Made by a program: the position numbers and the translations under genes. From a virus, in IMG/VR virus record IMGVR_UViG_3300030419_005622, positions 1 through 25,691 of that record: a DNA stretch of 25,691 nucleotides. One strand, written 5' to 3'. Position 1 is the first letter of the stretch; every line of letters begins with the position of its first letter. This document shows positions 368-25,560 of the stretch, piece by piece. The notes below the pieces were generated by a model. It did no database searches, was not told the DNA's origin, and worked only from the letters and a program-made list of their open reading frames with translations.

Positions 368-396
368 AATTTAACAATAAATTTTTTAATTGTCAA
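368..396 (-). promoter_or_regulatory. Sigma70-like promoter for the 27-332 gene
   Basis: On the minus strand there is a perfect TTGACA (391-396), a 17-base spacer, and TAAATT (368-373, four of six matches to TATAAT). It lies about 36 bases before the ATG of the 101-aa gene and just downstream of the terminator at 441-475. A second TTGACAAT promoter of the same style lies at 2326-2353. Confidence 0.6.
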
Positions 397-416
397 CTAA
401 AAAAAATGTTGCTGTG

Positions 417-426
417 GTAGTGTACA
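417..426. repeat. GTAGTGTACA motif, copy 1
   Basis: The ten bases GTAGTGTACA occur here and again at 2571-2580. Both copies are in promoter-bearing intergenic DNA. The core GTGTACAC is palindromic here. This copy lies about 20 bases upstream of the -35 box of the leftward promoter at 391-396, a position where a regulator could bind. Role is inference. Confidence 0.4.
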
Positions 427-440
427 CTTCTATAGAATAC

Positions 441-475
441 AAAAAAAAATAGGGGGGCTTTTCAGCCCCCCTATT
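441..475 (-). terminator. Intrinsic terminator ending the leftward operon
   Basis: Arms AATAGGGGGGCT (448-459) and AGCCCCCCTATT (464-475) pair perfectly over 12 bases around a 4-base loop. Read leftward, the stem is followed at once by a T tract (A run 441-449 on the plus strand). It begins only 8 bases after the stop codon of the 483-1055 gene. Confidence 0.9.
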
Positions 476-482
476 AATTTAT

Positions 483-632
483 TTACTTGGTTTTAGTTTT
501 TATAAACTCTGCTAAACAATCATTTATACCATTTAGTCTTTCAATTTCTTGGTTTAACAAGAAATTCTGCTTTTCTAAATAAAGAATATGCTCATCAGTT
601 CCACGCCATATTACGCCTTTATCTTTTTTCAT
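483..632 (-). CDS. Possible separate 49-aa gene inside the peptidase ORF
   Basis: In the same frame as the metallopeptidase, Met142 begins a 49-residue segment (MKKDKGVIWRGTDEHILY...) with a predicted helical, coiled-coil-like C-terminal half (LEKQNFLLNQEIERLN). Its ATG is preceded by CAAAGGAGAAAAA, nearly identical to the leader of the upstream gene's own ATG at 1055, and by a GGGG/CCCC hairpin at 657-674. These are the signals that start independent genes elsewhere in this module. It may be made by internal initiation, or be the real gene if the upstream ORF should end at the out-of-frame TAA just before the hairpin. No function recognised. Confidence 0.5.
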   Translation of the reverse strand: MKKDKGVIWRGTDEHILYLEKQNFLLNQEIERLNGINDCLAEFIKTKTK

Positions 633-1055
633 TCTATTTTTCTCCTTTGATTGCGTGGGGTTTTTCAGCCCCCCAGTTATGTAGTTGATAAATATATCTG
701 TTATCTCTTGATCTGAAACATTTTCTGTTGTTGCTGTATCATTCATAAGCTTACAGCCCTTAACATGTTTTTGATTGTATAGAGTATGAAGGATTTCATG
801 AAATACAGTAACCCTTAAATCTGATCTATTCAATCCCTTTTCAGTAATCCAAATATATTTTTTATTGCTATTCATAGTGGCTTGACCCAAAATACAATCA
901 TGATTTTCAGTAATTCTTACCTCTATCCTCTCATGATGGATACCAAACCTTTTAGCTATATTCTTGGCTTCGTAGATGTATTTCATCACTTGCCTTCTTT
1001 GAGGGAAGAAGCCCTCAGTTTTATTTTTTAGGTTTTTACTTTCTACTTTTTTCAT
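483..1055 (-). CDS. HExxH zinc metallopeptidase-like protein, C-terminal fusion
   Basis: A 190-residue ORF. Residues 86-90 are HEILH, the zinc-binding and catalytic motif of gluzincin-type metallopeptidases, in a hydrophobic helix (VTVFHEILHTLY). A candidate third ligand is Glu117 in SDQEITDIF, the arrangement used by ImmA/IrrE-like peptidases; no substrate can be inferred. The peptidase part is about 130 residues. From residue 130 on, the reading frame passes through DNA that looks like an intergenic hairpin and ribosome binding site, then into a distinct 49-residue tail starting at Met142, so this may be two genes fused or separated by a frameshift. AAAGGAG before the ATG supports the start; Met24 is an alternative. 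A terminator follows the stop. Confidence 0.65.
   Translation of the reverse strand: MKKVESKNLKNKTEGFFPQRRQVMKYIYEAKNIAKRFGIHHERIEVRITENHDCILGQATMNSNKKYIWITEKGLNRSDLRVTVFHEILHTLYNQKHVKGCKLMNDTATTENVSDQEITDIFINYITGGLKNPTQSKEKNRMKKDKGVIWRGTDEHILYLEKQNFLLNQEIERLNGINDCLAEFIKTKTK
657..674 (-). other. G/C hairpin at the internal gene boundary
   Basis: GGGG (657-660) and CCCCCC (669-674) flank an 8-base loop. On the minus strand it reads GGGGGGCTGAAAAACCCC, close to the terminator at 448-475 (GGGGGGCTGAAAAGCCCCCC), but without a T tract. It lies inside the open frame of the metallopeptidase yet is followed by CAAAGGAG and ATG, as an intergenic element would be. Confidence 0.5.
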
Positions 1056-1075
1056 TTTATTTTTTCTCCTTTGGT

Positions 1076-1101
1076 GGGGCTGTGTACACAGCCACAGCCC
1101 C
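1076..1101 (-). other. Intergenic palindromic hairpin
   Basis: Between two leftward genes. A perfect 16-base palindrome GGCTGTGTACACAGCC occupies 1078-1093; alternatively GGGGCTGTG (1076-1084) pairs with CACAGCCCC (1093-1101) over 9 bases. No T tract follows in the leftward direction; CAAAGGAG and the ATG of the 1055 gene follow instead. It contains GTGTACAC, the same core as the motif repeats at 417, 2494 and 2574. Possible roles are mRNA processing, stabilisation or a regulator site. Confidence 0.6.
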
Positions 1102-1115
1102 CCATTTTAATTTTT

Positions 1116-2060
1116 TTAGTATTCTGTGCCTTCTTCGTGGATTTCAAAATTTCCTGAAAGAAGGGCTTGGATTAGTCTTTGGTTTTTAGTTGTTGTGTGA
1201 TTGAAAGTAAAAACTTCATTTGTTTCAGTATCAATCACAATGTTTTTAATTCTCTTTTTCGGCTGTTCCTTTTTTTCAACTGCTTCGTGAGAGAATATTT
1301 TCTCTAGCTGCTTCATATCAAAATTCTTTTCCAACCATGAAAAGAACTCATCAGCCAAGCCTGTTGTTGAACAATGTCTTCTATCTTCATCCCAAAAGGT
1401 TTCCAATCCCATGCTAATTGCCAAAGCCTGAAATTGCCTATTGTGCAAGTCTTTTCCTTCAGAAGTGTCGCTTATCCCTAAGTAGTGGGCTATATTGTGA
1501 ACCTTCTCATGAACAGCAACCATCAAGCCAACTTCAAGCCAATTATTGGGCTGTAATACAGCTTCTTTAATTTGCATGATCCCAGCTCTGTTGTTGCCAT
1601 TAACTGGTCTGTAATGTCCCCCTTCGTGCCTGTTCTGTTTTACTTGAGAAAAAACAGGTTGTATTTCTAATTTCACATTGAATAGAATCTCCTGTTTTCT
1701 CTCTTCGTTCAAGAAGTGGTAATCCCCAAAAATTGAATTATTGTTTGGGTAATCCTTGTCACTTCTTTCTTCAAGTATTGAGAAAAAAGAAGCTTCATTG
1801 ACAGCATAGGATATTCCTTCATAGCTTGCTATTTCAGCTGTATCAATCTGTCTTGATGCATCTTCCCTTCCTAGTGTTGCTCCCACATTATCATTTAAGA
1901 TAGAAGGAAGAATCCCCCTAACATCCCTGTTTAAAGTCCATTCCTGAACAATAACCTGAACAGCCAGTTTTTGATCGTCTTCCCAGTTTACACCTGTAGG
2001 AAGTTCAATCTTGCCATCTTTGGCTTTCTTGAACTCGATCTTGTTTATTTTAGTAACCAT
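1116..2060 (-). CDS. SprT-like zinc metallopeptidase
   Basis: A 314-residue protein. HEKVH at 184-188 gives two zinc ligands and the catalytic Glu185; His206 in DLHNRQFQALAISMGLE fits the third ligand of SprT-like (Spartan-type) gluzincins, where a conserved 'HG..F......LGL' follows the HExxH. The N-terminal 150 residues are unlike anything I recognise; the C-terminus (residues 250-310) is a small basic then beta-rich appendix. SprT-like proteins in cells act on DNA-protein crosslinks, but a phage target is not known from this sequence. GAAAGGAATC before the ATG supports the start. It belongs to the leftward operon, downstream of the 47-aa gene and upstream of the HEILH peptidase, so two different metallopeptidases are co-transcribed. 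Confidence 0.7.
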   Translation of the reverse strand: MVTKINKIEFKKAKDGKIELPTGVNWEDDQKLAVQVIVQEWTLNRDVRGILPSILNDNVGATLGREDASRQIDTAEIASYEGISYAVNEASFFSILEERSDKDYPNNNSIFGDYHFLNEERKQEILFNVKLEIQPVFSQVKQNRHEGGHYRPVNGNNRAGIMQIKEAVLQPNNWLEVGLMVAVHEKVHNIAHYLGISDTSEGKDLHNRQFQALAISMGLETFWDEDRRHCSTTGLADEFFSWLEKNFDMKQLEKIFSHEAVEKKEQPKKRIKNIVIDTETNEVFTFNHTTTKNQRLIQALLSGNFEIHEEGTEY

Positions 2061-2115
2061 TTTTGATTCCTTTCGCTTATGGTTATTTCCTGTTTCGTTC
2101 TTTTGAACTCATCAG

Positions 2116-2133
2116 AGGGGATTAACATCCCCT
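2116..2133 (-). other. Intergenic hairpin between two leftward genes
   Basis: AGGGGAT (2116-2122) and ATCCCCT (2127-2133) pair perfectly over 7 bases with a TAAC loop. No T tract follows in the leftward direction. It is the same class of G4/C4 stem that marks the other boundaries of this module. Confidence 0.6.
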
Positions 2134-2143
2134 GACAGGTTTT

Positions 2144-2287
2144 TTATATTTGCTCCTTTACTATTTCTATCTCTGCTCCGAAAGCTTCTTGCTCTATTTT
2201 CCTAACCATTTTTTTTGCTTCCTGCAAGCTGTCTGCTTCGTAAAAACTCATTCCATCTAGTAGGATTATGTAAAAGTGGTTTTTCAT
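2144..2287 (-). CDS. Hypothetical 47-aa protein
   Basis: A 47-residue protein (MKNHFYIILLDGMSFYEADS...), beta-strand then amphipathic helix then short strand, with an acidic C-terminus. An ORF extending upstream to 2380 exists, but the ATG at 2287 has AAAGGAG at ideal spacing and lies downstream of the promoter at 2326-2353, whose predicted start site would exclude the longer form. It is the first gene of the leftward operon that continues into the SprT-like peptidase. Function unknown; the length and fold pattern fit small phage accessory proteins. Confidence 0.65.
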   Translation of the reverse strand: MKNHFYIILLDGMSFYEADSLQEAKKMVRKIEQEAFGAEIEIVKEQI

Positions 2288-2325
2288 TTGGTTCTCCTTT
2301 TGAACTCTATGTTTATTTAAGTTCA

Positions 2326-2353
2326 ATAGTACATAAATAAATATTATTGTCAA
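2326..2353 (-). promoter_or_regulatory. Sigma70-like promoter of the leftward operon
   Basis: Minus strand TTGACA (2348-2353), 16-base spacer, TACTAT (2326-2331, four of six matches to TATAAT). The predicted start lies about 32 bases before the ATG of the 47-aa gene. The TTGACAAT core is shared with the promoter at 368-396. Confidence 0.6.
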
Positions 2354-2493
2354 TACTTTTTTATGAATAATTTCATACATTTCAAAACAATCTTATGAAT
2401 ATTGTTATATATACAGGGCTAATCTTGGCTTTTAAGGTGTCTAGAAGCCCATTATACAAGCGTTCATCTTTTTTTTATCTTTTTAGTATGTCT

Positions 2494-2503
2494 GTGTACA
2501 TTA
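2494..2503. repeat. GTGTACATTA repeat, copy 1
   Basis: GTGTACATTA here and at 2574-2583, in the same orientation and exactly 80 bases apart. Flanks differ, so this looks like a short binding motif and not a duplicated block. Confidence 0.45.
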
Positions 2504-2570
2504 ACACGCTTATACATCATATCTTTAAAATGATATTTTCTACATAAAACTTTAAATAACATAAATTATA

Positions 2571-2583
2571 GTAGTGTACATTA
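2571..2583. repeat. GTAGTGTACATTA repeat, copy 2
   Basis: Contains both the GTAGTGTACA shared with 417-426 and the GTGTACATTA shared with 2494-2503. It lies 11 bases before the inverted repeat at 2594-2611. Confidence 0.45.
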
Positions 2584-2593
2584 CCATACTTAC

Positions 2594-2611
2594 CTGTTCC
2601 TTTTGGAACAG
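2594..2611. promoter_or_regulatory. Inverted repeat, possible operator
   Basis: CTGTTCC (2594-2600), TTTT, GGAACAG (2605-2611): a perfect 7-base inverted repeat. No T tract on either side, so a protein-binding operator is more likely than a terminator. Spacing does not match standard LexA boxes. Confidence 0.4.
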
Positions 2612-2700
2612 CTCACCGATACACATGCAACATTATATATACGACCTATGTAGTAGTCAGAGCGTTGAAAAATATGTTGCCCAAATATATAGACACAGCG

Positions 2701-2742
2701 TGGCAATTTCATAAAACCCCCTTAAGGGGTTTTAAAATGCCA
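2701..2742. other. Long hairpin upstream of terS
   Basis: Inner stem AAAACCCC (2713-2720) with GGGGTTTT (2726-2733) around CTTAA, extended outward, after a 3-base bulge and one mismatch, by TGGCA (2701-2705) pairing with TGCCA (2738-2742). It could be a bidirectional terminator insulating the two modules, a structured leader, or part of a packaging site. Confidence 0.5.
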
Positions 2743-2780
2743 TGCAATACATGGGGTAGAGATTATTAAGAGAAGGGGTG

Positions 2781-2786
2781 TATAAT
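2781..2786 (+). promoter_or_regulatory. TATAAT box, possible late promoter giving a leaderless terS mRNA
   Basis: A perfect TATAAT ends 7 bases before the terS ATG at 2794, so transcription from it would begin at or next to the start codon. No TTGACA-like box is seen at the right distance. The nearest Shine-Dalgarno-like stretch (AAGGGG, 2773-2778) is 15 bases from the ATG, too far for normal use. Confidence 0.35.
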
Positions 2787-2793
2787 ACTTTCC

Positions 2794-3297
2794 ATGGCAA
2801 AACAAAAAGGCTACGCATACATAGAAGAAAAGGTTTTGACAGCCATTCCTTGTTGGAATCAATGGACTAGACAACTAAGAAGAATATATCTCGCACTACC
2901 TGCCTTTGGTTCTTCTCCTGATGCCATTGAAGAAATATGCGAAGAATTGGGATTTGATTATGAAAAGGTAGAAAGAAAAATAATTACGACCCCAAGTTTT
3001 AAAAAATATCTTGATATGTACCGAAAAGATAATGCCTACCCCATTGTTTCTCAAAGGGAGGATGGTACATATACTTACAGAATAAAACATGATGATCTTA
3101 AACAGATTTATGGACAGTACGCAGATATTGTTAAGTATTTCCATATGGAAGATTTAAAGGCACAAGGCAAAGGTAGCGAATTTGCTTTGAGAGTTATCGA
3201 CCAAAGAAAACTTGTAGAAATGAACGCATCAGAGATAGAGGAAGAAAAGAAAAACGAAGATGGCTCAGTAGAGGTTAAGTTATTTGAGAGAACATAA
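2794..3297 (+). CDS. terS: Putative terminase small subunit
   Basis: A 167-residue protein placed directly before and overlapping the large terminase, the standard position of the small subunit, which recognises the packaging site and stimulates the large subunit. The N-terminal half is helical and fits a helix-turn-helix DNA-binding region (residues about 20-60, RRIYLALPAFGSSPDAIEEICEELGFDYEKV), the middle suits oligomerisation and the C-terminus is strongly charged (EIEEEKKNEDGSVEVK). Identification rests on context and fold pattern, not on a signature motif. The ATG is the only start after an in-frame stop at 2767; it lacks a well-spaced ribosome binding site (see TATAAT entry). It ends 14 bases inside the next ORF. 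Confidence 0.65.
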   Translation: MAKQKGYAYIEEKVLTAIPCWNQWTRQLRRIYLALPAFGSSPDAIEEICEELGFDYEKVERKIITTPSFKKYLDMYRKDNAYPIVSQREDGTYTYRIKHDDLKQIYGQYADIVKYFHMEDLKAQGKGSEFALRVIDQRKLVEMNASEIEEEKKNEDGSVEVKLFERT

Positions 3298-4828
3298 TTT
3301 TTATCCATGGCAACAGAACATGGTAGATTCAGATGCCAAAATAAAATGGGTACAAGCAGGTCGTAGAGCAGGAAAAACCCGAAGTTCTCTTATGGAAGCA
3401 ATGAGCGTTATTGAAAAAGCTGCTACCTCTCCTGTTGTTGTAGGTAACTCTTCTAAAAGACTTACTGCTATTCAAGCCAATCTTGTTCCACAGATTCATA
3501 TATGGACAGTTGCACCAACAAGAGCCCAGATGTTGCAGGTATGGAATGAAATGCAAACATTTATTCCTGAAGAATTTGTAAGAAAGACCAGAAGAAAGGG
3601 GCAAGCTGGAGGTAGAGGTGGTGGATTTAAACAAGATGATTTGCATGTTTGGCTTGATTTAAAAAATTCGTCAGGTACTACTGAAGGACTTTACAGAACT
3701 GAAGTGTTTTGGGAATTGAAGTCAGCAGATAACCCAGAATCATTACAGACTGTTGGGTTAGATTTTTTACATATGGCTGAAGCACAAGATATTAAAGAGG
3801 GGGCATGGAGTAAGGTGCGACCTACTTTAAACTCTCCGGGTAGATTGGGAAGAGCAATAGTCGAAGGTGTTCCACCAGAAAGTTCTCAACATTGGTTTGC
3901 AAGAAATTGCAAGATTGCAAAAGAAAATCCAAATAAAAGAAGAGAATATTTTCACGCAACTACATTTGATAATCCCGGTCTTACAGAAGAAGATAGAATT
4001 GAAATAGAAGATGAAAAGCAAGCACTTACAGAAGCTGTATGGGAGAGATTTTACCTTGCAAAACAACCTGAAGGTGCAGGTAACTTTTTTAGAAATATTC
4101 AATCTGCGTATTCAAAAGGTGCTGTAGAACTTGCACGACCAATAGATGGAAGGCACTATGTTGCAGGATTAGACTTAGGTAGAAGCAACGATCCAACTGT
4201 AATGATTGTAAAGGATAGGCAAACTAGAGAATCAGTAACTGTTGTTGAATTAATGAAAACTGATTGGTCTTTACAGGTTGAAACAATTAAGTCTTTAAGT
4301 GTAAGATGGAACATTGAAGAGATATATATGGACTCTACTGGGCTTGGTGGTAAATTTGGAGAAGATGTGCTTTACAGAGAGTTGATGGAAGAAAGTATTC
4401 CTGTGATAGGATATAATTTTACTCCGGGTAAAAAGTATCAATTATTTTTAGATTATGCTATATCTTTAGAAAAGGAAACTGTATCTTTTCCACAAAATTG
4501 GGTTAAACTGATAAGTCAGTTGGAAGATATAGGACACAAGGAAAGTGCAAATAGAGGACACACCTTTTTTAGTGTTTCAGGTGCACATGATGACTGGGTG
4601 GATGCAGAATGTTTGGCTTTAATGGCTTGTGATCCTGCTATGGAAGGAATAACGGGAGAAAGGGTTGTTCCAAATTCTATTTCAGGTATCAGACCATTAA
4701 ATCCTAGTAATAATTATTTTAATAAAAATTCTAGACTTCAAAAAGTAAAAAAAGCTAGAAAAGAAAAACAATTAGAAGATGCAGGCATCTCGATAGATGA
4801 ATACTTGCAAACTATAAGAAATACATAA
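3284..4828 (+). CDS. terL: Terminase large subunit (ATPase and nuclease)
   Basis: 514 residues, normal length. FYPWQ at 6-10 is the conserved N-terminal motif; GRRAGKT at 26-32 is the Walker A loop; LDFLHMAEAQ near 159-168 is the Walker B strand with catalytic Glu, Ala replacing the usual Asp. The RNase H-like nuclease domain shows AGLDLGRSNDP (Asp297), IYMDSTGLG (Asp350) and HDDWVD (Asp436, 437, 440), the metal-binding acidic residues that cut concatemeric DNA at the portal. The start is TTG: starting at the first ATG (3320) would delete FYPWQ, and AGAGG precedes the TTG. The gene overlaps terS by 14 bases and is followed after one base by the portal, with which it forms the packaging motor. 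Confidence 0.95.
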   Translation: MREHNFYPWQQNMVDSDAKIKWVQAGRRAGKTRSSLMEAMSVIEKAATSPVVVGNSSKRLTAIQANLVPQIHIWTVAPTRAQMLQVWNEMQTFIPEEFVRKTRRKGQAGGRGGGFKQDDLHVWLDLKNSSGTTEGLYRTEVFWELKSADNPESLQTVGLDFLHMAEAQDIKEGAWSKVRPTLNSPGRLGRAIVEGVPPESSQHWFARNCKIAKENPNKRREYFHATTFDNPGLTEEDRIEIEDEKQALTEAVWERFYLAKQPEGAGNFFRNIQSAYSKGAVELARPIDGRHYVAGLDLGRSNDPTVMIVKDRQTRESVTVVELMKTDWSLQVETIKSLSVRWNIEEIYMDSTGLGGKFGEDVLYRELMEESIPVIGYNFTPGKKYQLFLDYAISLEKETVSFPQNWVKLISQLEDIGHKESANRGHTFFSVSGAHDDWVDAECLALMACDPAMEGITGERVVPNSISGIRPLNPSNNYFNKNSRLQKVKKARKEKQLEDAGISIDEYLQTIRNT

Positions 4829-6925: not shown

Positions 6926-9526
6926 ATGCCAAAATATGAAATAAATCTATTAGGAACTGACGGAAGGCAATATAGAGATTATATTGATGCCCCAAGCCAA
7001 GCTGATGCTTTAAGAATTGCAAATGCTATGACACAAGAATCAGGTGCTAGGGTTCTTTCAGCGTTTGACCCAACAACAGCAATCCAACACTCTGGAGGAG
7101 TAAGTAATTCATCATTTGCTGGTCAATATGGTGAGGAAATAGGTAGAACTCGGAATCCACAAGTTAGGGGGGGTGATACCTACTCCCTTGAACTTTCACC
7201 TTCAATAAATCCTAATACTTTTACGCCTTATCAGCCTGCAACTACTACAATAAATCCTTTTCAGCAAGAAACAATTCAAACTCAAATGCCTGATTTTGTT
7301 GATAGAGAAGAAGATGCAGAAATAGCACAAAATCTTAAAGAAGAAAAAATGTCAGACATCAATGATAAAATTATAGAAAAGGCTATTGAAAATAATTATA
7401 CAGACTTGCCCTCTGGTGACTTCGATTTACCATATCAAGTATTAAACAAGATGGTAATGGATGGTGATTTGGATGAAGGAAGTGCTCAATATTGGCTTAG
7501 GAATCAGGATACCACTATTCAAGGTCAAGAAATGAAAAAATCATTAAATCCTAGCAGTTTGGGAGAATTAAAGGCTTCTGAGCCACAACCTGCTTTTGCT
7601 GGCTGGAGTAAACAGCTTATAAAAGAACAGCCTAGTGGAAATCTTAATAGAACAAATGGTTCTGGTTCAAATTTTAGAGTTTATGAATATACAAAAGGAA
7701 ATCAATCTGTAAGAGTTTGGCATTTAATTTCTCCGGGTGAAGGTAATAATTTTTTAAATTCTTCCATAGAAATTCCTGTTACTCCTAATGTTTTCCAAGA
7801 AGGAAAAGGTTGGTCTGACATTGAATATGATGACTTTGTTATGTTTAATAACAGAAAGCCAGATGACATAGCAGAAAAGGGGATACCTTATGAGCAAAAT
7901 TTGCTTTATTCAGAATTAGGTGATTTTTTAGAAGAAGTTACAGTAGATCGGGGAGATGGTACTAACTTAAATCCTTATATTAACCAATTTTTAATAGCAA
8001 ATGAGCAAATCGACAGACCTCTTGATTATGAATCACTTAAAGAAGCAAATGTTTTTGGTCATGGAGTATTTCCACTATCTAGTAATCAAAAGGCAAACTC
8101 TGAACAACTAGAAAACTATATTAATACTCTGAAGGCAGACCCTGAAACAGGTTTTTATCTTCCATCTACTAAAGCAACAGATATTGAAACAGATATTGAA
8201 ACACAGATGGAAGGTTTTCAAGAATTTGATGGAGCAGGAACAGGTATTGAACCAGAAGTGCCTGCCTTTGTTGACCCGGCAGGAATAGGACAAGAAACAG
8301 GAATGGTACCGGGTTTTGCTACGGGTGCTGGCATGTTTAGTCAAACTGATATTGACCCTAGAACTCAAGTACCAGATTTGGAAAAAGAATTTGTAGAACC
8401 GAAAAAAGAAGTTGTAGATGCACAACCTTCTGCAAATCCGGGTAGCTTAGATGAACTTTTTAATAACTTTGGAATTGACACAGGACCATTTGGTTTAAAC
8501 GCAGATTCATTACCGGGGTTCCCAATAGATTTATTTGAAGGACAAGATTTATTTGTAGATGTTACTGAAATAGAACAAATACCAAATCCTTCTTATAAAG
8601 GAGTTAGAGGAAGTGGACAGCCAGACGAAAATGGAAATGTAGAATTTTATCAAATTACCAATACTAGACGAGTTGAAAACCCTGCAATTAAAGCAGCTTT
8701 AGATGCTTATTCAGAACAGTTGAGAGCAAGAACAGAACTTGAAGGTTCAACTGCTCAAATTATTTCACAACAAATTCAATCTACCAGAGGTATGGGTGTA
8801 GGTGCAGATAGACTATCACCACAAGAGTTAGCAGATTTAGAAAGAAATGTATCTTTAATTGGTGCTTCCGAAGGATTGTTAAGTGCACCGGGTCAGTTTG
8901 AACAACAACTAGGTGATTTTAGGTTACAACAATTAAGAGAATCTGGAAGACCTCAAGTTCAACAGACTTTAGCAGGAATATATTCTGACCCTGTTGCTTA
9001 TGGTCTTGCAACTTCTACTGAAGCAGGAAGAAGATTTTTAGAGAATCTTGAAAGACAAGCATTTCAGCAAAATCCTTTTGCACAACAACAAATGCAAGGA
9101 GCACCTGTTGAACCATTTGATCCTGAAACAGAACCATCAAGTAGTATACCTATTGGAAGACAAATTGCAGTAGATCAACCTTTTGGAGGAGTATTTCCAG
9201 TATCTAATAATCAAGGAAATTTTGCAGATTTTATATCTTCTAATCTGTCAAGTTCAGCAAGCCCTTTTGATATAAGCCCTATAAATGGCATGAACCCACA
9301 ATCTCAAACTATTAGTGCTAGAGATTATTCGCTGGCAGGACCTGCTGAAAGAGCAAGAGCATTAGCAGAAGCAGCACAGCGTGGAGTATATGGTGAAGAA
9401 GAACTTGTAAAAGAAATATTAGGAAAAACTCCAGCATCAGGTGCTGGAACAGGTATACTTGCACCTAGACAATTAAAAAAATCAGTTTCAGCTGACCCAT
9501 TTAGTGGTGCAGTTTTGCAAAGGTGA
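6926..9526 (+). CDS. Large uncharacterised structural protein, 866 aa
   Basis: I recognise no domain. The first 45 residues (MPKYEINLLGTDGRQYRDYIDAPSQADALRIANAM) form a compact beta-beta-alpha segment; the rest is rich in Pro, Gln, Asn, Gly and Ser with many 'NPF', 'PGF' and 'FDP' turns, suggesting a long, partly disordered protein. Helical segments appear around residues 595-700 (ALDAYSEQLRARTELEG, SPQELADLERNVSL). At 8176-8199 a 12-base unit coding TDIE is duplicated in tandem. It ends in tandem in-frame stops TGA TAA immediately before the next gene. Position between portal and scaffold, and pairing with the 1468-aa protein, suggests an internal virion or ejection component; this is inference. 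Confidence 0.7.
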   Translation: MPKYEINLLGTDGRQYRDYIDAPSQADALRIANAMTQESGARVLSAFDPTTAIQHSGGVSNSSFAGQYGEEIGRTRNPQVRGGDTYSLELSPSINPNTFTPYQPATTTINPFQQETIQTQMPDFVDREEDAEIAQNLKEEKMSDINDKIIEKAIENNYTDLPSGDFDLPYQVLNKMVMDGDLDEGSAQYWLRNQDTTIQGQEMKKSLNPSSLGELKASEPQPAFAGWSKQLIKEQPSGNLNRTNGSGSNFRVYEYTKGNQSVRVWHLISPGEGNNFLNSSIEIPVTPNVFQEGKGWSDIEYDDFVMFNNRKPDDIAEKGIPYEQNLLYSELGDFLEEVTVDRGDGTNLNPYINQFLIANEQIDRPLDYESLKEANVFGHGVFPLSSNQKANSEQLENYINTLKADPETGFYLPSTKATDIETDIETQMEGFQEFDGAGTGIEPEVPAFVDPAGIGQETGMVPGFATGAGMFSQTDIDPRTQVPDLEKEFVEPKKEVVDAQPSANPGSLDELFNNFGIDTGPFGLNADSLPGFPIDLFEGQDLFVDVTEIEQIPNPSYKGVRGSGQPDENGNVEFYQITNTRRVENPAIKAALDAYSEQLRARTELEGSTAQIISQQIQSTRGMGVGADRLSPQELADLERNVSLIGASEGLLSAPGQFEQQLGDFRLQQLRESGRPQVQQTLAGIYSDPVAYGLATSTEAGRRFLENLERQAFQQNPFAQQQMQGAPVEPFDPETEPSSSIPIGRQIAVDQPFGGVFPVSNNQGNFADFISSNLSSSASPFDISPINGMNPQSQTISARDYSLAGPAERARALAEAAQRGVYGEEELVKEILGKTPASGAGTGILAPRQLKKSVSADPFSGAVLQR

Positions 9527-14785: not shown

Positions 14786-15685
14786 ATGGCAAGTGGACTA
14801 TCGCTATCGTCTAGTTCGAGTCTGTCAGATATGTCTAGGATTGTTATTGCTAATGCAATAGCAAACATAGAACCTGCTGGTCCTACAAACCAGCTTGTAG
14901 CAAGATATGATATTCCTCAAGGTGCAAAGCAAGTTAATATTCCAGTTTGGGGTAGAAACGATGCAGCAGCACTTACTGAAGGTATTGACATATCAGTTCC
15001 TCAACAATTATCTGTTACTGTGACAAGCATTACTGCTTCTGAGCATGGTATCATGACTTTTGTTTCTGATAGATTGAGCAGACAAAATAACGAAGACATA
15101 CTTTCTCATGTTGGTGAAGTACAAGGTGGTGCTTTAGGAAGATTACTAGAAAGTGATCTTACAACTCTATTCGATGGGTTCTCGAACTCAATCGGATCAG
15201 CAGGTAGCTACCTTACTTACTACCATGTAGCAGGTGCTGTGTCTTACTTAAAAACTGACAACAATGCTTCTTATGGAATGGCTCCGGGTACACCTTCAGG
15301 TGTATTCCACCCAGAACAAATTAGAGCATTCGTTCAAGAAGTAACTGGTATCCAAGGTGGTGGAACTACTGGTATGGCTGCACAGCCAATTCCAGAAGGT
15401 ATTACTGCTGATGTGGTACAAAACTACTTCAGAGGAAATGAAAAAGCCTTTGGTGTTCCAATTTACCAATCTGGTGTATTAAGCAGAGATGGTTCTGGTG
15501 ACTCTAAAGGTGCTATCTTCGTTCCACAGGCTTTAGCTTTGGCTATGGCTCATGAAATGGAAGCTGAAGAAGAGAGAGATGCTTCATTAAGAGGTACTGA
15601 GATGGTTATGGTTGGTGAATGGGGAGAAGCCGAAGTGGCTGACCCTTGGGGTGTTGAAATGCTCGGAGCATCAGACGCACTGTAG
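14786..15685 (+). CDS. Major capsid protein
   Basis: 299 residues following the scaffold, the normal order. The sequence fits an HK97-fold coat: Ser-rich N-arm, QVNIPVWGRNDAAALTEGIDI and VTVTSITASEHGIMTFVSDRLSRQ in the E-loop and P-domain region, a long helix EDILSHVGEVQGGALGRLLESDLTTLF, and the C-terminal A-domain strands GVPIYQSGVL and GAIFVPQALALAMAHEMEAEEERD. Codon choice has more C-ending codons than the neighbours (for example the first codons CTATCGCTATCG), as expected of the most abundant protein. AGGAG lies 9 bases before the ATG. The stop is TAG, which shows that amber is read as a stop in this genome. Confidence 0.9.
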   Translation: MASGLSLSSSSSLSDMSRIVIANAIANIEPAGPTNQLVARYDIPQGAKQVNIPVWGRNDAAALTEGIDISVPQQLSVTVTSITASEHGIMTFVSDRLSRQNNEDILSHVGEVQGGALGRLLESDLTTLFDGFSNSIGSAGSYLTYYHVAGAVSYLKTDNNASYGMAPGTPSGVFHPEQIRAFVQEVTGIQGGGTTGMAAQPIPEGITADVVQNYFRGNEKAFGVPIYQSGVLSRDGSGDSKGAIFVPQALALAMAHEMEAEEERDASLRGTEMVMVGEWGEAEVADPWGVEMLGASDAL

Positions 15686-16956: not shown

Positions 16957-17262
16957 ATGGCATTTGGACATCAAAAATTAACTGTTGATGCTACAGTAAG
17001 ATCACTTACAGTACCCAATGATGTGAACTTTGCACAGATTAAAGTTGAAACAGCAGCAATAAGGTACAGAATAGATGGCACAGACCCAGCAACTGCTGAA
17101 GGTGTGCTAGTTAGTGCAGGTGATGCTTTTACTGTTTATGGAGCAGATACTTTGGCTGAGATTAAAATGGTTGAAGCAACAAGCACAGATGCAGTTATAA
17201 ATGTATCTTACGGCACAGCTAATACTGGAATACATGGCGTTATTATAAATACGGCAGCGTAG
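16957..17262 (+). CDS. Putative virion-associated beta-sandwich protein, 101 aa
   Basis: 101 residues, beta-rich throughout. The stretch NFAQIKVETAAIRYRIDGTDPATAEGVLVSAGDAFTV matches a pattern I know from small phage virion proteins ('...V-E-x-A-x-I/V-R-Y-R-x-D-G-T-x-P-T-A...G...L...G'), often found near decoration or head-fibre genes. AAGGAG precedes the ATG. It ends in tandem TAG TAG codons. A decoration or fibre role is inferred. Confidence 0.6.
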   Translation: MAFGHQKLTVDATVRSLTVPNDVNFAQIKVETAAIRYRIDGTDPATAEGVLVSAGDAFTVYGADTLAEIKMVEATSTDAVINVSYGTANTGIHGVIINTAA

Positions 17263-17269
17263 TAGGCTT

Positions 17270-17734
17270 ATGGGTAAATATACTAAAGCCAACAAAAATA
17301 ACATATTTAAAGAAGAACCTGAAATATCAGTTTCAGAACATACTGTTACTAAAAATGGCAGAAGAATGAAAATGGTAATTCCAGAGGGCAAGATTGGATA
17401 TGGTGATGTAGAATCTCACGCTCAAATGGCTGGTGATTTAGCTACTAAACATTCTGACGATTCTAAAGCAGGTGAAAAGGCTTATGAAGAAGTTAGAAAG
17501 CATAGATCAGAAGATACTGGTTCTAGCGTAGAACAGCATAAAGCAAAAATGATTTACGATAAAATGGCAAGTCGTATGCCTGTTATTCAAACTTTTAATA
17601 TTGCTGACCCAATAACTGGAGAAGTTATAGCTCAAGAGTTTTTATTTATGAAAACTGAAAAAAGTGGTTTAACTAGACCTTTAAAGATTAGAGTTGATGT
17701 TCAAACAGGTAAAACTACGGAGGTTCCAGTTTAA
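17270..17734 (+). CDS. Hypothetical 154-aa protein
   Basis: 154 residues. The N-terminus is basic, then a polar region (VTKNGRRMKMVIPEGKIGYGDVESHAQMAGDL), a helical middle (KAYEEVRKHRSEDT...EQHKAKMIYDKMASRM), and a C-terminal beta region (VIQTFNIADPITGEVIAQEFLFMKTE...LKIRVDVQTGKTTEVPV). No motif recognised. The ribosome binding site is weak (TAGTAGG). The stop shares a base with the next ATG (TAATG), so it is coupled to the tail adaptor gene. The location between decoration and adaptor genes suggests a head-completion role, inferred only. Confidence 0.55.
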   Translation: MGKYTKANKNNIFKEEPEISVSEHTVTKNGRRMKMVIPEGKIGYGDVESHAQMAGDLATKHSDDSKAGEKAYEEVRKHRSEDTGSSVEQHKAKMIYDKMASRMPVIQTFNIADPITGEVIAQEFLFMKTEKSGLTRPLKIRVDVQTGKTTEVPV

Positions 17735-19050: not shown

Positions 19051-21632
19051 TGCCAACTGCTAAATCTGATTCTGATATAGTTCTTAGCAAAACTGATGGT
19101 TCAAGTTCTATTGTAGGTATTAAACTTCATAAAAATTCTTCAGGATTACCGGGTGGATATAGGATTGAACATCTTTCACCAGCACCACCTAGGCAAGCAA
19201 CTGATGCAGCAAACTATCAACAACAATCTCCAGACATAGGACTTGTATTAGACCAGCAAACATGGCACAGAGGATTTGGAGCATCGTTTATAGAACAGTT
19301 TGGTACTGCAAGTGAAGCAAATGCTGCAAAAGCAGTTTATGGCTATACAGAGGATGCTTTGGCTATGTTTAAAGGCGAGATAACTACTGGCTACCTTATT
19401 GATGAAACAGACAGTATGCTTAGAAATGGTAGATTTGAAGCAATATCATCAGATGATTATACTATAGACCCTTGGTCTAAATCAGCATCTGGAATGACAT
19501 TTGAAGGCGATACAAGTTCTACATATATAAGAAACGGAAAAGCAGGAGCAAAAGTTGTAACTACAGGAACAAGTCAATATGTAGAGCAAACTCTTAATAA
19601 TGCTTCTTTATTTCAAAGTAGAAAAATATTTTTACATGGATATTTAAAAAGAGTATCAGGTTCTGGAAATGCTACAGTTAGCATTATAGAAAGTGGTGGT
19701 TCTAGCACACCAACTACATCATCTCAGGCTATTACAAATACAGATTGGCAAAATGCACATTCATCTGGGTCTTCTGGAACAGATTTAAATGTAACAATAC
19801 AAAGTGATACTACTGGTATCAAAATAAGAGTTACTTTTAGTGCATCTGGAGATACTTGGGCAATGGATGATTTCTCTATTATTCCAGAAGGTGGAGTAGT
19901 TGCAACTCAACCCCAAGAATTTGGTGGAAAAATATATGTTGGTTGTGGTAGACAAATACTTCAATGGGATGATGACAATAATTACTGGAAACCTGTTTAT
20001 TGGGATAGTGCATATTCAATTACAAGCCTTGCTAGCTATAAATCCGTTCTTTATGCAGCTTTAGGTGAATATTCAGCAAGTTCTACAACTGAAGGTAGCA
20101 TGATAGTTGCAACTGAAAGACCATATAAAAGGTCTTCAAATGGAACATCTTGGTCTACACCAAGTAATAGTGGAGATAATAATCAAAGCAAAGCATCTTA
20201 TTTTACTACTGCAAGAAATGCTAGTGGAGATATGGCTTTATTTAAAACTAGAGGAAATACAGTAAATGTTTGTACTGATGGTACCGATACAGCAAACTGG
20301 GGAACTGAAATAGATGCAGGAAATCCTGACAGGTCAATAGTAAGTTTATTTGGTTCAAATGATATTCTTTATGTAGGTAGAGAAGATGGACTTATGTCTT
20401 ATGACAGAGCAACTAATAAGTTTTTAGATTTACAGCCAGAAGCCAATTTCTTCCCTGATGAACATAACTTTAGAGTTGCTCAAGGTAGGTCAGGTTCAAT
20501 TTTTGCATCAGGTGGTGACCAATCTTTTTGGAAAATAAGTCCGGGTAGTTATAGTGGTTCGTATGTATGGGAAGACCAATCTTATTTATTTAAAGCACCA
20601 ACATTTAGAGGATTTGGTGGAAGAATTACAGGTTTAGCACAAGATAAAAATAATTTATTTGTCGCTCTTGCTGATGATTTAGGTAGAGAAGGTGGGTTTC
20701 CATATACTTTTCCGTTTGCTTTAGCAGGTGCAGGTATATCAAAAACAGTTAAATTATTATCAGTTAGAACTCAGAGAGAAAGTGGTTCTTCTGCTCCAGA
20801 AGAAATTGCACATACTATGGCTAGTTTTACTGTTACACAAGTTTATCAAATGGGTAAATTTCAAGGCTCAGAAAGAAATAGTTTATTTGTTTTTGGGTCT
20901 AATATTGATGACAATGCTAACGATTCAAGCAATAATAAAGAGCCAAGATTATTTAGAGTTAGGATGCCTGTAAGAAATGAAAATCCAGCATTAAATGCAG
21001 TTACAGAACAGCAGTTTTCAGGTAATTTTTATACACCATTTATAAACTTTAACTTCCCAGATGTTAATAAGACAGGAGTTAAACTTACTTTAACTGGTTT
21101 AAATTTAGATTCAAATAAATATGTAACTGTTTATTATAAAACAGATGATGATTCAGATGATGATGATGCAGGTTGGAATACTTGGGGAAGTGATGGACAA
21201 TTTACATCAAGTGGGCAGACAGTAGCAGCTTCTTTATCTACTCTTACAAATTTTGATCGTATTAGATTTAAAATTACTTTTACTAGCAATGTAAATAGTT
21301 CTGCTCCTAGGATAACTTCATTAGTATTTCACGCTGCTTGGAATCCTATTGATTATAGAAAATGGACTGCTGTTACAAAATTAACTGATAGAAGAAGTTT
21401 ACAATTAAGAAGAACAATAAAATCTGGATTATCAACTACAGATATAACTAATTTAGAAACATTAAGACAAGAACCATTTGTATTATTTACAGATATTGAT
21501 GGTACTTCACATTATGTTAATTTAAAATTCACAGATGACTTAATTTCTAATAGAATATATGCTAATAGAAATGTGTCACCTGACCAGACAAGGTTATTTA
21601 CTTTGGAAATGACGGAGGTTAAAACAAGTTAA
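19050..21632 (+). CDS. Large beta-rich tail protein (nozzle-like) with carbohydrate-binding-like domain
   Basis: 860 residues. Residues about 125-277 (NGRFEAISSDDYTIDPWSKS ... GDTWAMDDFSIIPEGG) form a second CBM4/9-like jelly roll resembling that in the preceding protein. Residues 280-620 repeat short strands typical of a beta-propeller (GGKIYVGCGRQILQWD, YKSVLYAALGEY, SNDILYVGREDGLMSYD, DKNNLFVALADD). A very acidic run (TDDDSDDDDAGW, about 698-708) sits in a C-terminal beta-sandwich followed by a final domain (WTAVTKLTDRRSLQLRR...). Nozzle proteins of T7 (gp12) and P22 (gp10) are propellers, so a tail tube/nozzle role is reasonable for a short-tailed phage. AAAGGAG precedes the ATG, which overlaps the previous stop. 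Confidence 0.55.
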   Translation: MPTAKSDSDIVLSKTDGSSSIVGIKLHKNSSGLPGGYRIEHLSPAPPRQATDAANYQQQSPDIGLVLDQQTWHRGFGASFIEQFGTASEANAAKAVYGYTEDALAMFKGEITTGYLIDETDSMLRNGRFEAISSDDYTIDPWSKSASGMTFEGDTSSTYIRNGKAGAKVVTTGTSQYVEQTLNNASLFQSRKIFLHGYLKRVSGSGNATVSIIESGGSSTPTTSSQAITNTDWQNAHSSGSSGTDLNVTIQSDTTGIKIRVTFSASGDTWAMDDFSIIPEGGVVATQPQEFGGKIYVGCGRQILQWDDDNNYWKPVYWDSAYSITSLASYKSVLYAALGEYSASSTTEGSMIVATERPYKRSSNGTSWSTPSNSGDNNQSKASYFTTARNASGDMALFKTRGNTVNVCTDGTDTANWGTEIDAGNPDRSIVSLFGSNDILYVGREDGLMSYDRATNKFLDLQPEANFFPDEHNFRVAQGRSGSIFASGGDQSFWKISPGSYSGSYVWEDQSYLFKAPTFRGFGGRITGLAQDKNNLFVALADDLGREGGFPYTFPFALAGAGISKTVKLLSVRTQRESGSSAPEEIAHTMASFTVTQVYQMGKFQGSERNSLFVFGSNIDDNANDSSNNKEPRLFRVRMPVRNENPALNAVTEQQFSGNFYTPFINFNFPDVNKTGVKLTLTGLNLDSNKYVTVYYKTDDDSDDDDAGWNTWGSDGQFTSSGQTVAASLSTLTNFDRIRFKITFTSNVNSSAPRITSLVFHAAWNPIDYRKWTAVTKLTDRRSLQLRRTIKSGLSTTDITNLETLRQEPFVLFTDIDGTSHYVNLKFTDDLISNRIYANRNVSPDQTRLFTLEMTEVKTS

Positions 21633-23449
21633 TGGCAAACGAATTAAAACACGCAAGCGTAGGTTCTCAGTTATCTCAGACTGAATACGAATCAATTACT
21701 GGACATACTTTAGATTCACAAGCTGCTGGAGATATTATATATGCTAGTTCTACTACACAATTATCAAGATTAGGCATAGGTAGTGCTGGTCAAGTCTTAA
21801 TGACAAACTCAGGGGCATCAGCACCTGAATGGTCAGCAGCACTAACAGGAGTAACTTCGATATATGCTACTGATTTAATAATAGGTGAGGACTCACAGAC
21901 TGCTATAGACTTTGGTACTGCTAACGAAATTGATTTTAAAGTAGATAATGCAAATAGATTAACATTGACTGCTAGTGCATTATATCCTGCAACTGACAAC
22001 CAAATAGACTTAGGTACAAGTTCACTTGAATTTAAAGATGCTTATTTTGATGGCACAGTAACAGCAGATGCCTTTGCAGGTCCTCTTACAGGTGATGTAA
22101 CTGGTACTGCATCTGTAGCAACTACAGTAACTATTACAGATAACGAGAGTACCGATGAAGATAATGCAGTTGTATTTACAGCAGGTGGAGATGTTGATGG
22201 TGGAGATTTAGGTTTAGAATCTGATGGTAATTTAACATATAACCCAAGTACAGGTAGACTTACGGCTACTCAACTTGCAGGTACATTACAAACAGCAAGT
22301 CAAACTAACATAACAGGAGTTGGTACTATTTCAACTGGTGTTTGGCAAGGAACTGCTATAGCTTCTAGTTATATAGCAGCCGATGCTATTACAGGAGCCA
22401 AGATAGCAGACGATGCTATTGATAGTGAACACTATACAGATGGCTCGATTGATACTGCTCATATAGCAGACGACCAAGTTACTCTTGCAAAAATGGCTGG
22501 ATTGGCTAGAGGTAAAATTATATATGGTGATGCAAGTGGTGATCCTGCTGCTTTAGCAGTTGGTTCTGCAAACTATGTATTAACATCAGATGGCACAGAT
22601 ATCGCTTGGGCAGCAGCAACTACAGGAGATATTACAGGCGTAACAGCAGGTGATGGTATTAGTGGTGGTGGAACTTCAGGTGGAGTTACAGTTGCAGTTG
22701 ATTTAGGTACAAACTCTGGACTTGAAATAGATAGCAATAAATTACAGATAGCCAAAGGAATATCACAACATGATGTGCCACAGTTTACATCAGGTGTAGC
22801 AGATGATGATTTCTTACGAGTAGACGGCACAGTCGTAGAAGGTAGAAGTGCATCAGAAGTTTTATCTGATATAGGTGCTTCAGCTGCAGCAGGTAGTTCA
22901 AGTATAGTTACAGTTGGTGCAGTAAACGCAGGTTCAATAACATCAGGATTTTCAAGCATAGATGTTGGGTCAGGTGCTATATCAACAACAGGAACAGTAA
23001 GTGCTGGAATAGTAGATATCACACAAGAAGCACATTTGGATTCATCACCAACAGACGAAACTGTATCAGGAATAACTGCTACATTTACAGCAGGTGAAGA
23101 TTTAGTAAGAGGTGAGGTAGTTTATTTTAAAGCAGCAGATTCTAAAATGTGGAAAGCAGTAGCTTCAGCTTCAGCTACTTCAAGATGTGTTGCTATGGCA
23201 GCAGCTGATATATCGGCAGATGCAACAGGTAAATTCTTATTGTATGGATTTTTAGGTGACAATGGTTCATTCCCAGCATATACAGTTGGTGGAACATTAT
23301 ATACTCCAGAAGCAGAAACAAGTAGCGAAAATGTGCCTGAACAAACAGCACCTGATAGTGATGGTGACTTTGTACAAGTTCTTGGTTTTGCAGTTACAGC
23401 AAACTCTGTATTTTTTAATCCAAGCAACGATATTATAGAACACGCATAA
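21632..23449 (+). CDS. Tail fibre protein
   Basis: 605 residues, Gly/Ala/Thr/Ser/Asp-rich with many short repeats of tail fibres: 'DNQIDLGTSSLEFKDAYFDGTVTADAFAGPLTGDVTGTASVA', 'IADDAIDSEHYTDGSIDTAHIADDQVTLAKM', and the 'GITGVTAGDGISGGGTSGGVTVAVDL' type, all common in trimeric phage fibres. The C-terminal 150 residues (FTAGEDLVRGEVVYFKAADSKMWKA... FVQVLGFAVTANSVFF) look like a compact virion-associated beta domain. It likely extends from the tail and contacts the host. The start overlaps the previous stop in TAATG, with GGAGG 13 bases upstream. Confidence 0.85.
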   Translation: MANELKHASVGSQLSQTEYESITGHTLDSQAAGDIIYASSTTQLSRLGIGSAGQVLMTNSGASAPEWSAALTGVTSIYATDLIIGEDSQTAIDFGTANEIDFKVDNANRLTLTASALYPATDNQIDLGTSSLEFKDAYFDGTVTADAFAGPLTGDVTGTASVATTVTITDNESTDEDNAVVFTAGGDVDGGDLGLESDGNLTYNPSTGRLTATQLAGTLQTASQTNITGVGTISTGVWQGTAIASSYIAADAITGAKIADDAIDSEHYTDGSIDTAHIADDQVTLAKMAGLARGKIIYGDASGDPAALAVGSANYVLTSDGTDIAWAAATTGDITGVTAGDGISGGGTSGGVTVAVDLGTNSGLEIDSNKLQIAKGISQHDVPQFTSGVADDDFLRVDGTVVEGRSASEVLSDIGASAAAGSSSIVTVGAVNAGSITSGFSSIDVGSGAISTTGTVSAGIVDITQEAHLDSSPTDETVSGITATFTAGEDLVRGEVVYFKAADSKMWKAVASASATSRCVAMAAADISADATGKFLLYGFLGDNGSFPAYTVGGTLYTPEAETSSENVPEQTAPDSDGDFVQVLGFAVTANSVFFNPSNDIIEHA

Positions 23450-23450
23450 T

Positions 23451-23822
23451 ATGGGTAACGAAATAGAAAAATTAAATGGAATTGCACTAGCAAGTATTGA
23501 AAAATTAAATGGATTAACTGATGCCAACATGGAGCATGTTAACGGATTAGATTTCGTAGGTTTAGTGCAAGGTGATACATTTTCTACATCTAGTGCTACC
23601 TTAGACACAGCAAGAAGTAGACTATTTGGATTTGGAGTGAGCAGGGATGCAATTATTATTGGTGGTGGAAAAAATAGTTCTGGAACGAAATTAACATCTT
23701 GTGAAGGATATAATGGTTCTACTGGAGCAACTGATGCTGTGGCAGCCATAGGAACGGCAACTCATTCTTTAACTGGGTGTGGTTCAGAAAGTGCAGGATT
23801 AATTCATGGAGGGGCAACTTAG
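23451..23822 (+). CDS. Kelch-repeat tail protein, part before the in-frame TAG
   Basis: 123 residues. The N-terminus carries a three-fold 11-residue repeat (IEKLNGIALAS, IEKLNGLTDAN, MEHVNGLDF) which often begins marine-phage tail proteins and may be the virion anchor. Residue 45 onward is kelch-like: FGFGVSRDAIIIGGGKNSSGTKLTSCEGYNGST, then GTATHSLTGCGSESAGLIHGGAT, where a TAG interrupts the repeat. The frame continues in phase into the next gene, whose first residues complete the broken repeat, so the true protein may be 325 residues. Read-through, a C-to-T nonsense mutation (CAG to TAG) and assembly error are all possible. There is no strong ribosome binding site; the TAATATGG junction suggests coupling. 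Confidence 0.7.
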   Translation: MGNEIEKLNGIALASIEKLNGLTDANMEHVNGLDFVGLVQGDTFSTSSATLDTARSRLFGFGVSRDAIIIGGGKNSSGTKLTSCEGYNGSTGATDAVAAIGTATHSLTGCGSESAGLIHGGAT

Positions 23823-24428
23823 ATGGCAGAAATAAGAACATCGTATGAATATACTGGTGGTGGCACAGATAGCTGGGGAAGTAGTGCAAACTCTAATACC
23901 AATGGTGGCGAATGTACTGCTATTGGTGGAACACAAGGTAGTGCGTTATCAAATGGTGGGTACATAGGTGGTTATAATGCTGAATCTGAAAGTTATGATG
24001 GTTCATCTTGGTCAACTACTCCTGCAAACTTAAGTGCAAACCAAGCGTATGGTTCTGGAACAGGAACATCTAGTTCAGATTATTTAATAGTTGGTGGTTA
24101 CAATGGTTCTGTCTTAGATACATCATATACATTTGATGGTAGTAGTTGGTCATCTAGTTATGATCTTGCAAATGCAAGGAATGTAGGAAGTTTAATGGGT
24201 ACTCCAGCAGATGCTTGTCTTACTGGTGGTGGCAGGATTGCTAATAATGATAGCGAAATATTTGCAGGTACAAGTTGGGCAACTGGTCCAACTCCTAGTG
24301 ATGATAGACACCATACAAACCCTAGCACTAATTGTGGTGGCACAAATGGTAGTGCAACTTTAGGTGGTGGTACTACATCATCTACAAGTTCAGCAACAAA
24401 TCTAATAATGCACTTGGATAAATCTTAA
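23823..24428 (+). CDS. Kelch-repeat tail protein, part after the in-frame TAG
   Basis: 201 residues in the same frame as the preceding ORF, separated only by TAG, with ATG as the very next codon. It continues the kelch series: SYEYTGGGTDSW, GGYNAESESYDGSSW, GGYNGSVLDTSYTFDGSSW, GGGRIANNDSEIFAGTSW. Such blades usually make a beta-propeller at a tail tip that binds a receptor sugar or protein. GGAGGGG lies 8 bases before the ATG, so independent initiation or reinitiation is possible, although those bases are also the normal coding of the 'HGGA' repeat element. The first blade lacks its opening strand here, which argues that this part is not a complete protein by itself. Confidence 0.7.
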   Translation: MAEIRTSYEYTGGGTDSWGSSANSNTNGGECTAIGGTQGSALSNGGYIGGYNAESESYDGSSWSTTPANLSANQAYGSGTGTSSSDYLIVGGYNGSVLDTSYTFDGSSWSSSYDLANARNVGSLMGTPADACLTGGGRIANNDSEIFAGTSWATGPTPSDDRHHTNPSTNCGGTNGSATLGGGTTSSTSSATNLIMHLDKS

Positions 24429-24429
24429 T

Positions 24430-24708
24430 ATGGTATATTTTCACAAAGAACAACTTACACAATTTACTTATGCAGATGCAGAAAGGTGTACTCTTAAAGG
24501 TTATCCGGGCAATGTTTATAAGATAGAAGATAAAGTAGATGGCTCAGGTGAATCATCAACTTTTATTTCAAAACACAGCCTTGACGAAAAAACTAGATCA
24601 CAAGCACAAACTTTAGTAAATCAGGGAATTATAGACTTAAATAATTTTATGGCAGATGCTGAGCTTCCTAGTGGTACATTTACGCAAGGAGCAATAACAC
24701 TTGAATAA
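24430..24708 (+). CDS. Hypothetical 92-aa protein
   Basis: 92 residues beginning MVYFHKEQLTQFTYADAERC, mixed alpha/beta (LKGYPGNVYKIEDKV, helix LDEKTRSQAQTLVNQGII), no motif recognised. It follows the kelch gene through the same TAATATGG junction used by the portal and the kelch gene. Its last eight bases overlap the next ORF if that starts at TTG. A role as a small tail or fibre accessory protein is suggested only by position. Confidence 0.6.
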   Translation: MVYFHKEQLTQFTYADAERCTLKGYPGNVYKIEDKVDGSGESSTFISKHSLDEKTRSQAQTLVNQGIIDLNNFMADAELPSGTFTQGAITLE

Positions 24709-25354
24709 CTTTCCAATGTTAAAAAAAGAAGATTCGGATTTCCTTAAAGATTTAAGGGAAGAAATAGATGATGCTTACTTTAAAAATCAAATATATAGAA
24801 CTGAATCTGAAATGCGTTATTCAATTTTGCAAGATGGTAAGCATCCGACACCTGCTAGTAAATATTGGCAATGTGTAAGAGAACAAGTAATGATGTACAA
24901 GAATCTTAGGCGTGAATCGTATGACTATAGAAGATTGACAATAGAAATAAAAATGCTAGAACGAGCCATTGAAAATGAACAAGATGATCTTAAAAAAGAA
25001 ATGTTACAAGTAGACTTAGATGAAAAAAATTGGCAAAAAATTGATTTAGAAAGAGTAAGTACAGATAGGGTGCGAGAAATAGAACATTGGTCTAGGCTAA
25101 AGAAAGAGTTAGACGATGGTTCATTCGATACACAGAATGTAGAAACTCACAGAAAAGAAGCCATGACATTAGCATTAAAACATAGAGCAGCTTCTATATC
25201 GCAAGGTAGTAGTCAAGGTGAAATTTTGAATGTATTGGGTCCATTGGCTACAATAGATAGCGATTATAAAAAATTATTAGTTGATAGGGAAGATGCAGCA
25301 ATAGGAAGTGCTAAACGAAATCAACTAAAAAATGGTCATAAGGAGGAGAAATGA
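24701..25354 (+). CDS. Hypothetical coiled-coil protein, 217 aa
   Basis: A charged, almost wholly helical protein. Residues about 65-130 (YDYRRLTIEIKMLERAIENEQDDLKKEMLQVDLDEKNWQKIDLERVSTDRVREIEHWSRLKKEL) form a long coiled coil. The start is TTG at 24701, supported by AAGGAG nine bases upstream and an 8-base overlap with the previous gene; the first ATG (24716, residue 6) has no ribosome binding site. The stop overlaps the next ATG in ATGA. I do not recognise the family. It sits at the tail-to-lysis junction, so it could be a late accessory protein. Confidence 0.65.
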   Translation: MNNFPMLKKEDSDFLKDLREEIDDAYFKNQIYRTESEMRYSILQDGKHPTPASKYWQCVREQVMMYKNLRRESYDYRRLTIEIKMLERAIENEQDDLKKEMLQVDLDEKNWQKIDLERVSTDRVREIEHWSRLKKELDDGSFDTQNVETHRKEAMTLALKHRAASISQGSSQGEILNVLGPLATIDSDYKKLLVDREDAAIGSAKRNQLKNGHKEEK

Positions 25355-25560
25355 CTACTGAGGAGCAAATTAAACATGATTTGCTAACAATAATACAAGT
25401 TAGAAATCAAAGAATAGCCGAACTTGAATTGGATAAATTATCTTTGGTTAGAAATCAATGCAAAGGAGAGTGCAACAATGCCAATGGGGAAAGCATACAA
25501 GTACAAAAAGCCGATAGTAAAGACAAGAAAGTCTTCGGTGAAAAAGAAAAAGCCAAATAG
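25351..25560 (+). CDS. Hypothetical 69-aa protein
   Basis: 69 residues: an N-terminal helix (MTTEEQIKHDLLTIIQVRNQRIAELELDKLSL) that looks like a short coiled coil, then Cys-containing NQCKGECNN, then a polar Lys-rich tail. AAGGAGG is immediately upstream and the start overlaps the previous stop (ATGA). The C-terminal third shares its DNA with the out-of-frame basic peptide at 25478-25570. The stop is TAG and coincides with the start of the ribosome binding site for the following gene. Confidence 0.6.
   Translation: MTTEEQIKHDLLTIIQVRNQRIAELELDKLSLVRNQCKGECNNANGESIQVQKADSKDKKVFGEKEKAK

Follow-up and report, generated by a model that had tools for sequence, protein, structure and literature searches.

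We find that the kelch gene of an uncultivated phage is divided by an in-frame TAG that is directly followed by an ATG and preceded by a sequence of the Shine-Dalgarno (SD) type, and we consider it on balance probable that this arrangement arose by gene fission, tolerated or selected, with the second chain made by reinitiation or fresh initiation and both chains closing one six-bladed propeller. The window, by which we mean the whole stretch of DNA analysed (25,691 nucleotides of the IMG/VR record IMGVR_UViG_3300030419_005622), holds two open reading frames (ORFs) that lie in the same frame and are parted only by the TAG, at the coordinates that an earlier note on this DNA had given for them (Table 1).

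We suggest that a single ancestral kelch-propeller gene would have fissioned into two cistrons, and that ribosomes would complete the 123-aa N-chain and terminate at the TAG. The GGAGGGG formed by the Gly-Gly codons could then act as an SD within the end of the N-chain ORF, so that the adjacent ATG would be used, by termination-reinitiation or by fresh initiation, for the 201-aa C-chain, and the two chains may close one propeller that is cut at a surface loop. Reinitiation leading to two chains in one propeller had been put forward in the earlier note as one of two possible outcomes of the break, and it is the best supported mechanism. For the window itself, we infer that the C-chain is translated, that the two chains assemble and that the product has a binding role.

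Table 1. Position of the split kelch gene, its parts and its neighbours in the window, with uninterrupted kelch genes from the same position in other phages
Feature	Position	Strand	Description
Preceding structural gene	21632..23449	+	605 aa, of the fibre or stem type; TAA-T-ATG couples the N-chain to it
N-chain ORF	23451..23822	+	123 aa; virion anchor and first part of the kelch propeller
Conserved N-terminal anchor	23451..23585	+	Residues 1-45; 91% identical in L006
GGAGGGG	23808..23814	+	Encodes the Gly-Gly of the blade; matches the anti-SD; 10 nt between its GGAGG core and the ATG
In-frame TAG	23820..23822	+	In a blade, at the loop joining the Gly-Gly strand to the Tyr strand; residue 84 of the AlphaFold2 model
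C-chain ORF	23823..24428	+	201 aa; remaining kelch propeller; PHROG 27227 match spans the TAG
Next small gene	24430..24708	+	92 aa; similar gene after the uninterrupted kelch gene in L181
Conserved downstream gene	24701..25354	+	217 aa; marks the same genome position in other phages, including L262
Syntenic single-ORF kelch genes			L169, 340 aa; L178, 310 aa; L179, 320 aa

Stop, start and Shine-Dalgarno sequence at the junction

The C-chain ORF begins with the ATG at 23823, which abuts the TAG, and it runs in the frame of the N-chain ORF to a TAA at 24426-24428, with zero additional stops or frameshifts in its 201 codons. The blade unit has the form GG-x-SYEY...DSW, and the TAG falls inside its loop at an exposed surface position; the kelch unit is in fact broken in its middle, as had been claimed. 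An ATG is found as the next codon at 4 of the 324 codons of the joined frame. The energy of pairing with the anti-SD is -9.8 kcal/mol for the junction ATG, which is stronger than at any of the other 148 ATGs that lie in frame in the genes of the window (1st percentile, -8.7), and the only annotated starts with a stronger SD are those at 17734, 21632 and 25351. There are 15 Gly-Gly codon pairs in the joined frame, and the pair at the junction is the only one that does not begin GGTGG.

When the junction peptide was back-translated, 22% of the draws equalled its SD energy because Gly-Gly favours such sequence, and GGAGG accounts for 38% of the post-Gly-Gly loops of this type in the kelch genes that were fetched. 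The SD alone is therefore no proof of a split, and since the zero-distance ATG and the strong SD were picked after the fact, we regard them as supportive and not as a clean test. The RNA of the junction forms no structure of unusual stability (z = +1.0) that would mask it.

It has been reported that reinitiation requires overlaps or very short distances (PMC10666635) and that the SD is important in most of the E. coli gene pairs tested (PMC6728339). At the junction the start adjoins the stop of the upstream ORF and the SD lies within that ORF, two of the features expected of a termination-reinitiation pair. The N-chain is itself without an SD of its own (0.2 kcal/mol), and its ATG stands one base after the TAA at 23447-23449 that ends the previous gene; coupled translation therefore seems to be a local habit.

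The predicted propeller and its place in the genome

PHROG 27227 aligns with residues 46-208 of the joined frame, across the TAG (E=1.8e-16); Pfam gave no match for the joined frame. An alignment of 73 domains shows repeats of ~45 aa that carry the Gly-Gly, the Tyr and the Trp. AlphaFold2, given the 72 kelch relatives from the fetched loci (73 sequences in all) as input alignment, returned a kelch propeller for residues 41-325 (pLDDT 88.3, pTM 0.87) with the joined frame modelled as a single chain rather than as two chains, and a confident model needed the 73-sequence alignment, as four sequences gave a pLDDT of 29. The best PDB matches of the model in Foldseek were designed six-bladed kelch proteins and the kelch domains of KLHL12 and Keap1, and among viral predicted structures it matched phage and poxvirus kelch proteins. 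From this model, the joined frame is predicted to be a six-bladed kelch propeller. The view that both ORFs belong to one continuous kelch protein is thus borne out by the PHROG match across the TAG, by the propeller model and by unsplit syntenic homologues.

Such homologues occupy the same position in four other phages, where the kelch gene is in each case one uninterrupted ORF, and the ancestral state was therefore probably a single uninterrupted gene. The kelch domain closest to that of the window (45% identity) is part of a 797-aa ORF in a different phage (L181, 1450-3843), in which it is joined to another domain of ~500 aa, and the downstream genes of the window come after this ORF. As the four syntenic relatives are unsplit, the cut is known in the lineage of the window from one assembly only. 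L006 comes nearest to a second assembly of the same phage, but its contig stops at residue 45. The nearest isolate by terminase is distant, with at most about 30% identity among the matches listed. The bacterial genomes encoded no C-chain relative, and the pattern scan found no split kelch gene in them.

The anchor formed by residues 1-45 is attached to unrelated C-terminal domains in L008, L013, L016, L021 and L065. The source contig of L008 carries a terminase 100% identical to that of the window, and L008 has, at 7431-8855, a wholly different 474-aa tip behind the same short anchor, a case that is uninformative on the TAG. With identical terminases and different tips, the tip has been swapped between close relatives. 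A conserved virion anchor with an exchangeable tip is what is expected of a receptor-binding protein, and the kelch protein is, judging from sequence comparison, probably a host-binding tip, which residues 1-45 would attach to the virion.

Split kelch genes in other phages

Other uncultivated phages yielded eight more split kelch genes, two each in L209 and L262, one shared by L266 and L270, and one each in L289, L426 and L430. All nine junctions, that of the window included, cut the same type of post-Gly-Gly loop in different blades, and at every one of them a GGAGG lies 9-15 nt ahead of the ATG. In the eight others the stop is a TAA that touches the start; seven overlap by 1 nt as TAATG, and L430 is split in frame (TAA-ATG) with zero spacer, like the window. 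Homologues consistently encoding two genes with a spacer, which according to the earlier note would have spoken against a broken single gene, are thus not what is found: the syntenic relatives have one ORF, and it is distant kelch genes that are made of two, either overlapping or directly adjoining.

The N-chains of the split genes are 123, 129, 169-177 or 220 aa long, in keeping with cuts in different blades, and in the pairs with two complete chains the summed length is 324-335 aa, close to that of unsplit genes (310-344 aa). The junctions fall into five types, represented by the window, by L430, by the second L209 gene, by the first L262 gene together with L266 and L289, and by the first L209 gene together with the second L262 gene and L426. 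Between split orthologues dS ranges from 0.09 to 1.1, with dN/dS of about 0.1 to 0.7 for both chains, values that come from diverged orthologues of other phages and not from the window's own C-chain. Given that both chains are under purifying selection in those phages, their C-chains are evidently being made and retained. The split gene has the same sequence in L266 and L270, which stem from two metagenomes, and this argues against an assembly error for that split.

In L262 (reverse strand, 380-3398), L266 (6876-9943) and L209 (3-1966), two or three kelch genes stand in tandem. Where kelch genes adjoin one another in the loci, they mostly form ordinary arrays of whole genes with no split. The second gene of the array is whole in L266 and its counterpart is split in L262; this suggests that split and whole forms may have been swapped between paralogues in such arrays. 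The conserved downstream gene of the window has a counterpart in L262, the locus with two split kelch genes, with 53% identity over 183 aa.

The search for recurrence started from an unplanned match in L209 and was then targeted. The pattern scans required an ATG near the blade motif and are biased toward the GGAGG-stop-start arrangement; three of the splits, those of the window, of L430 and of the second L209 gene, came to light by other routes than such a pattern. Among 758 distinct kelch ORFs one other mid-blade break was found, in L296 (reverse strand, near 471), where a TAG has no nearby start codon and the arrangement resembles a frameshift or an error and not a split gene.

We propose, as an idea falling slightly short of an even chance, that kelch propellers of uncultivated phages have repeatedly been cut at the Gly-Gly loop, whose codons would double as an SD, and that they form a class of two-chain receptor-binding proteins with halves that could be made unequally or exchanged separately.

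Alternative readings and known systems

A recent nonsense mutation, confined to one lineage or population variant, could have left a decaying gene of which the C-terminal part is lost or negligibly made. We consider this unlikely, yet the most plausible of the alternatives, as it agrees with the uninterrupted syntenic relatives and with the quick exchange of tip modules, which extends to a relative as close as L008, and as the TAG is seen in one assembly only; no second assembly of the same phage was present in viral_contigs or the phage records, which leaves room for a unique mutation. A random stop would, however, precede an ATG at just those 4 of 324 places, and an ATG with an equally strong SD at one, the 201 codons that follow are intact, and the same type of split has been maintained across long divergence in other phages.

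The other outcome named in the earlier note, amber suppression with one short and one long product, is not supported. Partial readthrough, by a suppressor tRNA of the host or at a leaky stop, would yield the short N-chain and some full-length protein of 325 aa, and it is true that the ORFs share one frame and that the full length agrees with the homologues. We nevertheless find it improbable, and more so than a nonsense mutation. No tRNA genes, suppressors included, were found in the phage record, and the adjacent ATG and the SD would be left unexplained. The stop of the comparable splits is TAA, and in most of them the halves are out of frame (TAATG), so that suppression cannot join these. 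The column of the TAG is mostly Pro, Gly, Thr, Ser or Asn in the 72 kelch relatives, with no codon typical of suppression, and Gln occurs in none of them (0/72); an ancestral CAG is therefore not indicated, and the single CAG-to-TAG change that had been suggested was a guess.

A sequencing or assembly error at 23820-23822 is less probable still. The sequence is known from one metagenomic scaffold, in which a run of ten Ns (25692-25701) marks a gap directly past the end of the window, but an error would have had to land immediately ahead of an ATG that has a strong SD, and like junctions occur in other contigs, identically in the two assemblies L266 and L270. Reassignment of TAG to an amino acid, for which only the open frame speaks, was rejected and we give it practically no weight, since three other genes of the window end in TAG (the coat-type ORF 14786-15685 that the earlier note had rightly cited, 16957-17262 and 25351-25560; gene stops in all, 17 TAA, 4 TAG and 3 TGA), the frame runs into a stop within a few codons after two of them, and no internal TAG occurs in ~8,100 other codons of the window's genes.

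With cuts in the same loop in other phages and a stop that sits beside an SD-preceded start, we favor fission into two chains that probably assemble, and not readthrough. If the chains do assemble, a minimal step would have sufficed to give a natural split propeller: the Gly-Gly motif needed by the fold can already encode a ribosome-binding site, and one stop plus one start would make two cistrons of a receptor-binding gene. Breaks in the ORFs of phage tail genes from metagenomes need then not always be errors or readthrough. No earlier description of such a split propeller was found in the open-access literature searched.

The predicted propeller shares the Gly-Gly/Tyr/Trp repeat and the predicted fold (TM about 0.7 to solved kelch propellers) with KLHL12, Keap1, the designed SAKe6 and the phage kelch proteins of PHROG 27227, and differs from them in being encoded by two ORFs with the cut within a blade after Gly-Gly. 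Programmed stop-codon readthrough likewise places an in-frame stop within a continuous domain, whereas here no suppressor was found in the phage record, an SD and a start stand at the stop, and the parallel cases have TAA and are mostly out of frame. The products of gene pairs coupled by reinitiation are often subunits of the same complex (PMC10666635), and the window resembles the known termination-reinitiation pairs (Huber et al. 2019, 2023) in that stop and start touch or overlap, the SD lies inside the upstream ORF and the products are expected to be partners. In contrast to those pairs, the two ORFs here each encode one half of a single ancestral domain, and the SD is built from codons that the fold needs. 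The closing of one propeller by several polypeptide chains has a designed counterpart in Pizza2 (PMC7337062), a trimer whose identical chains, each of two repeats (two blades), together form a full propeller, whereas the window would combine two unequal chains with the cut inside a blade.
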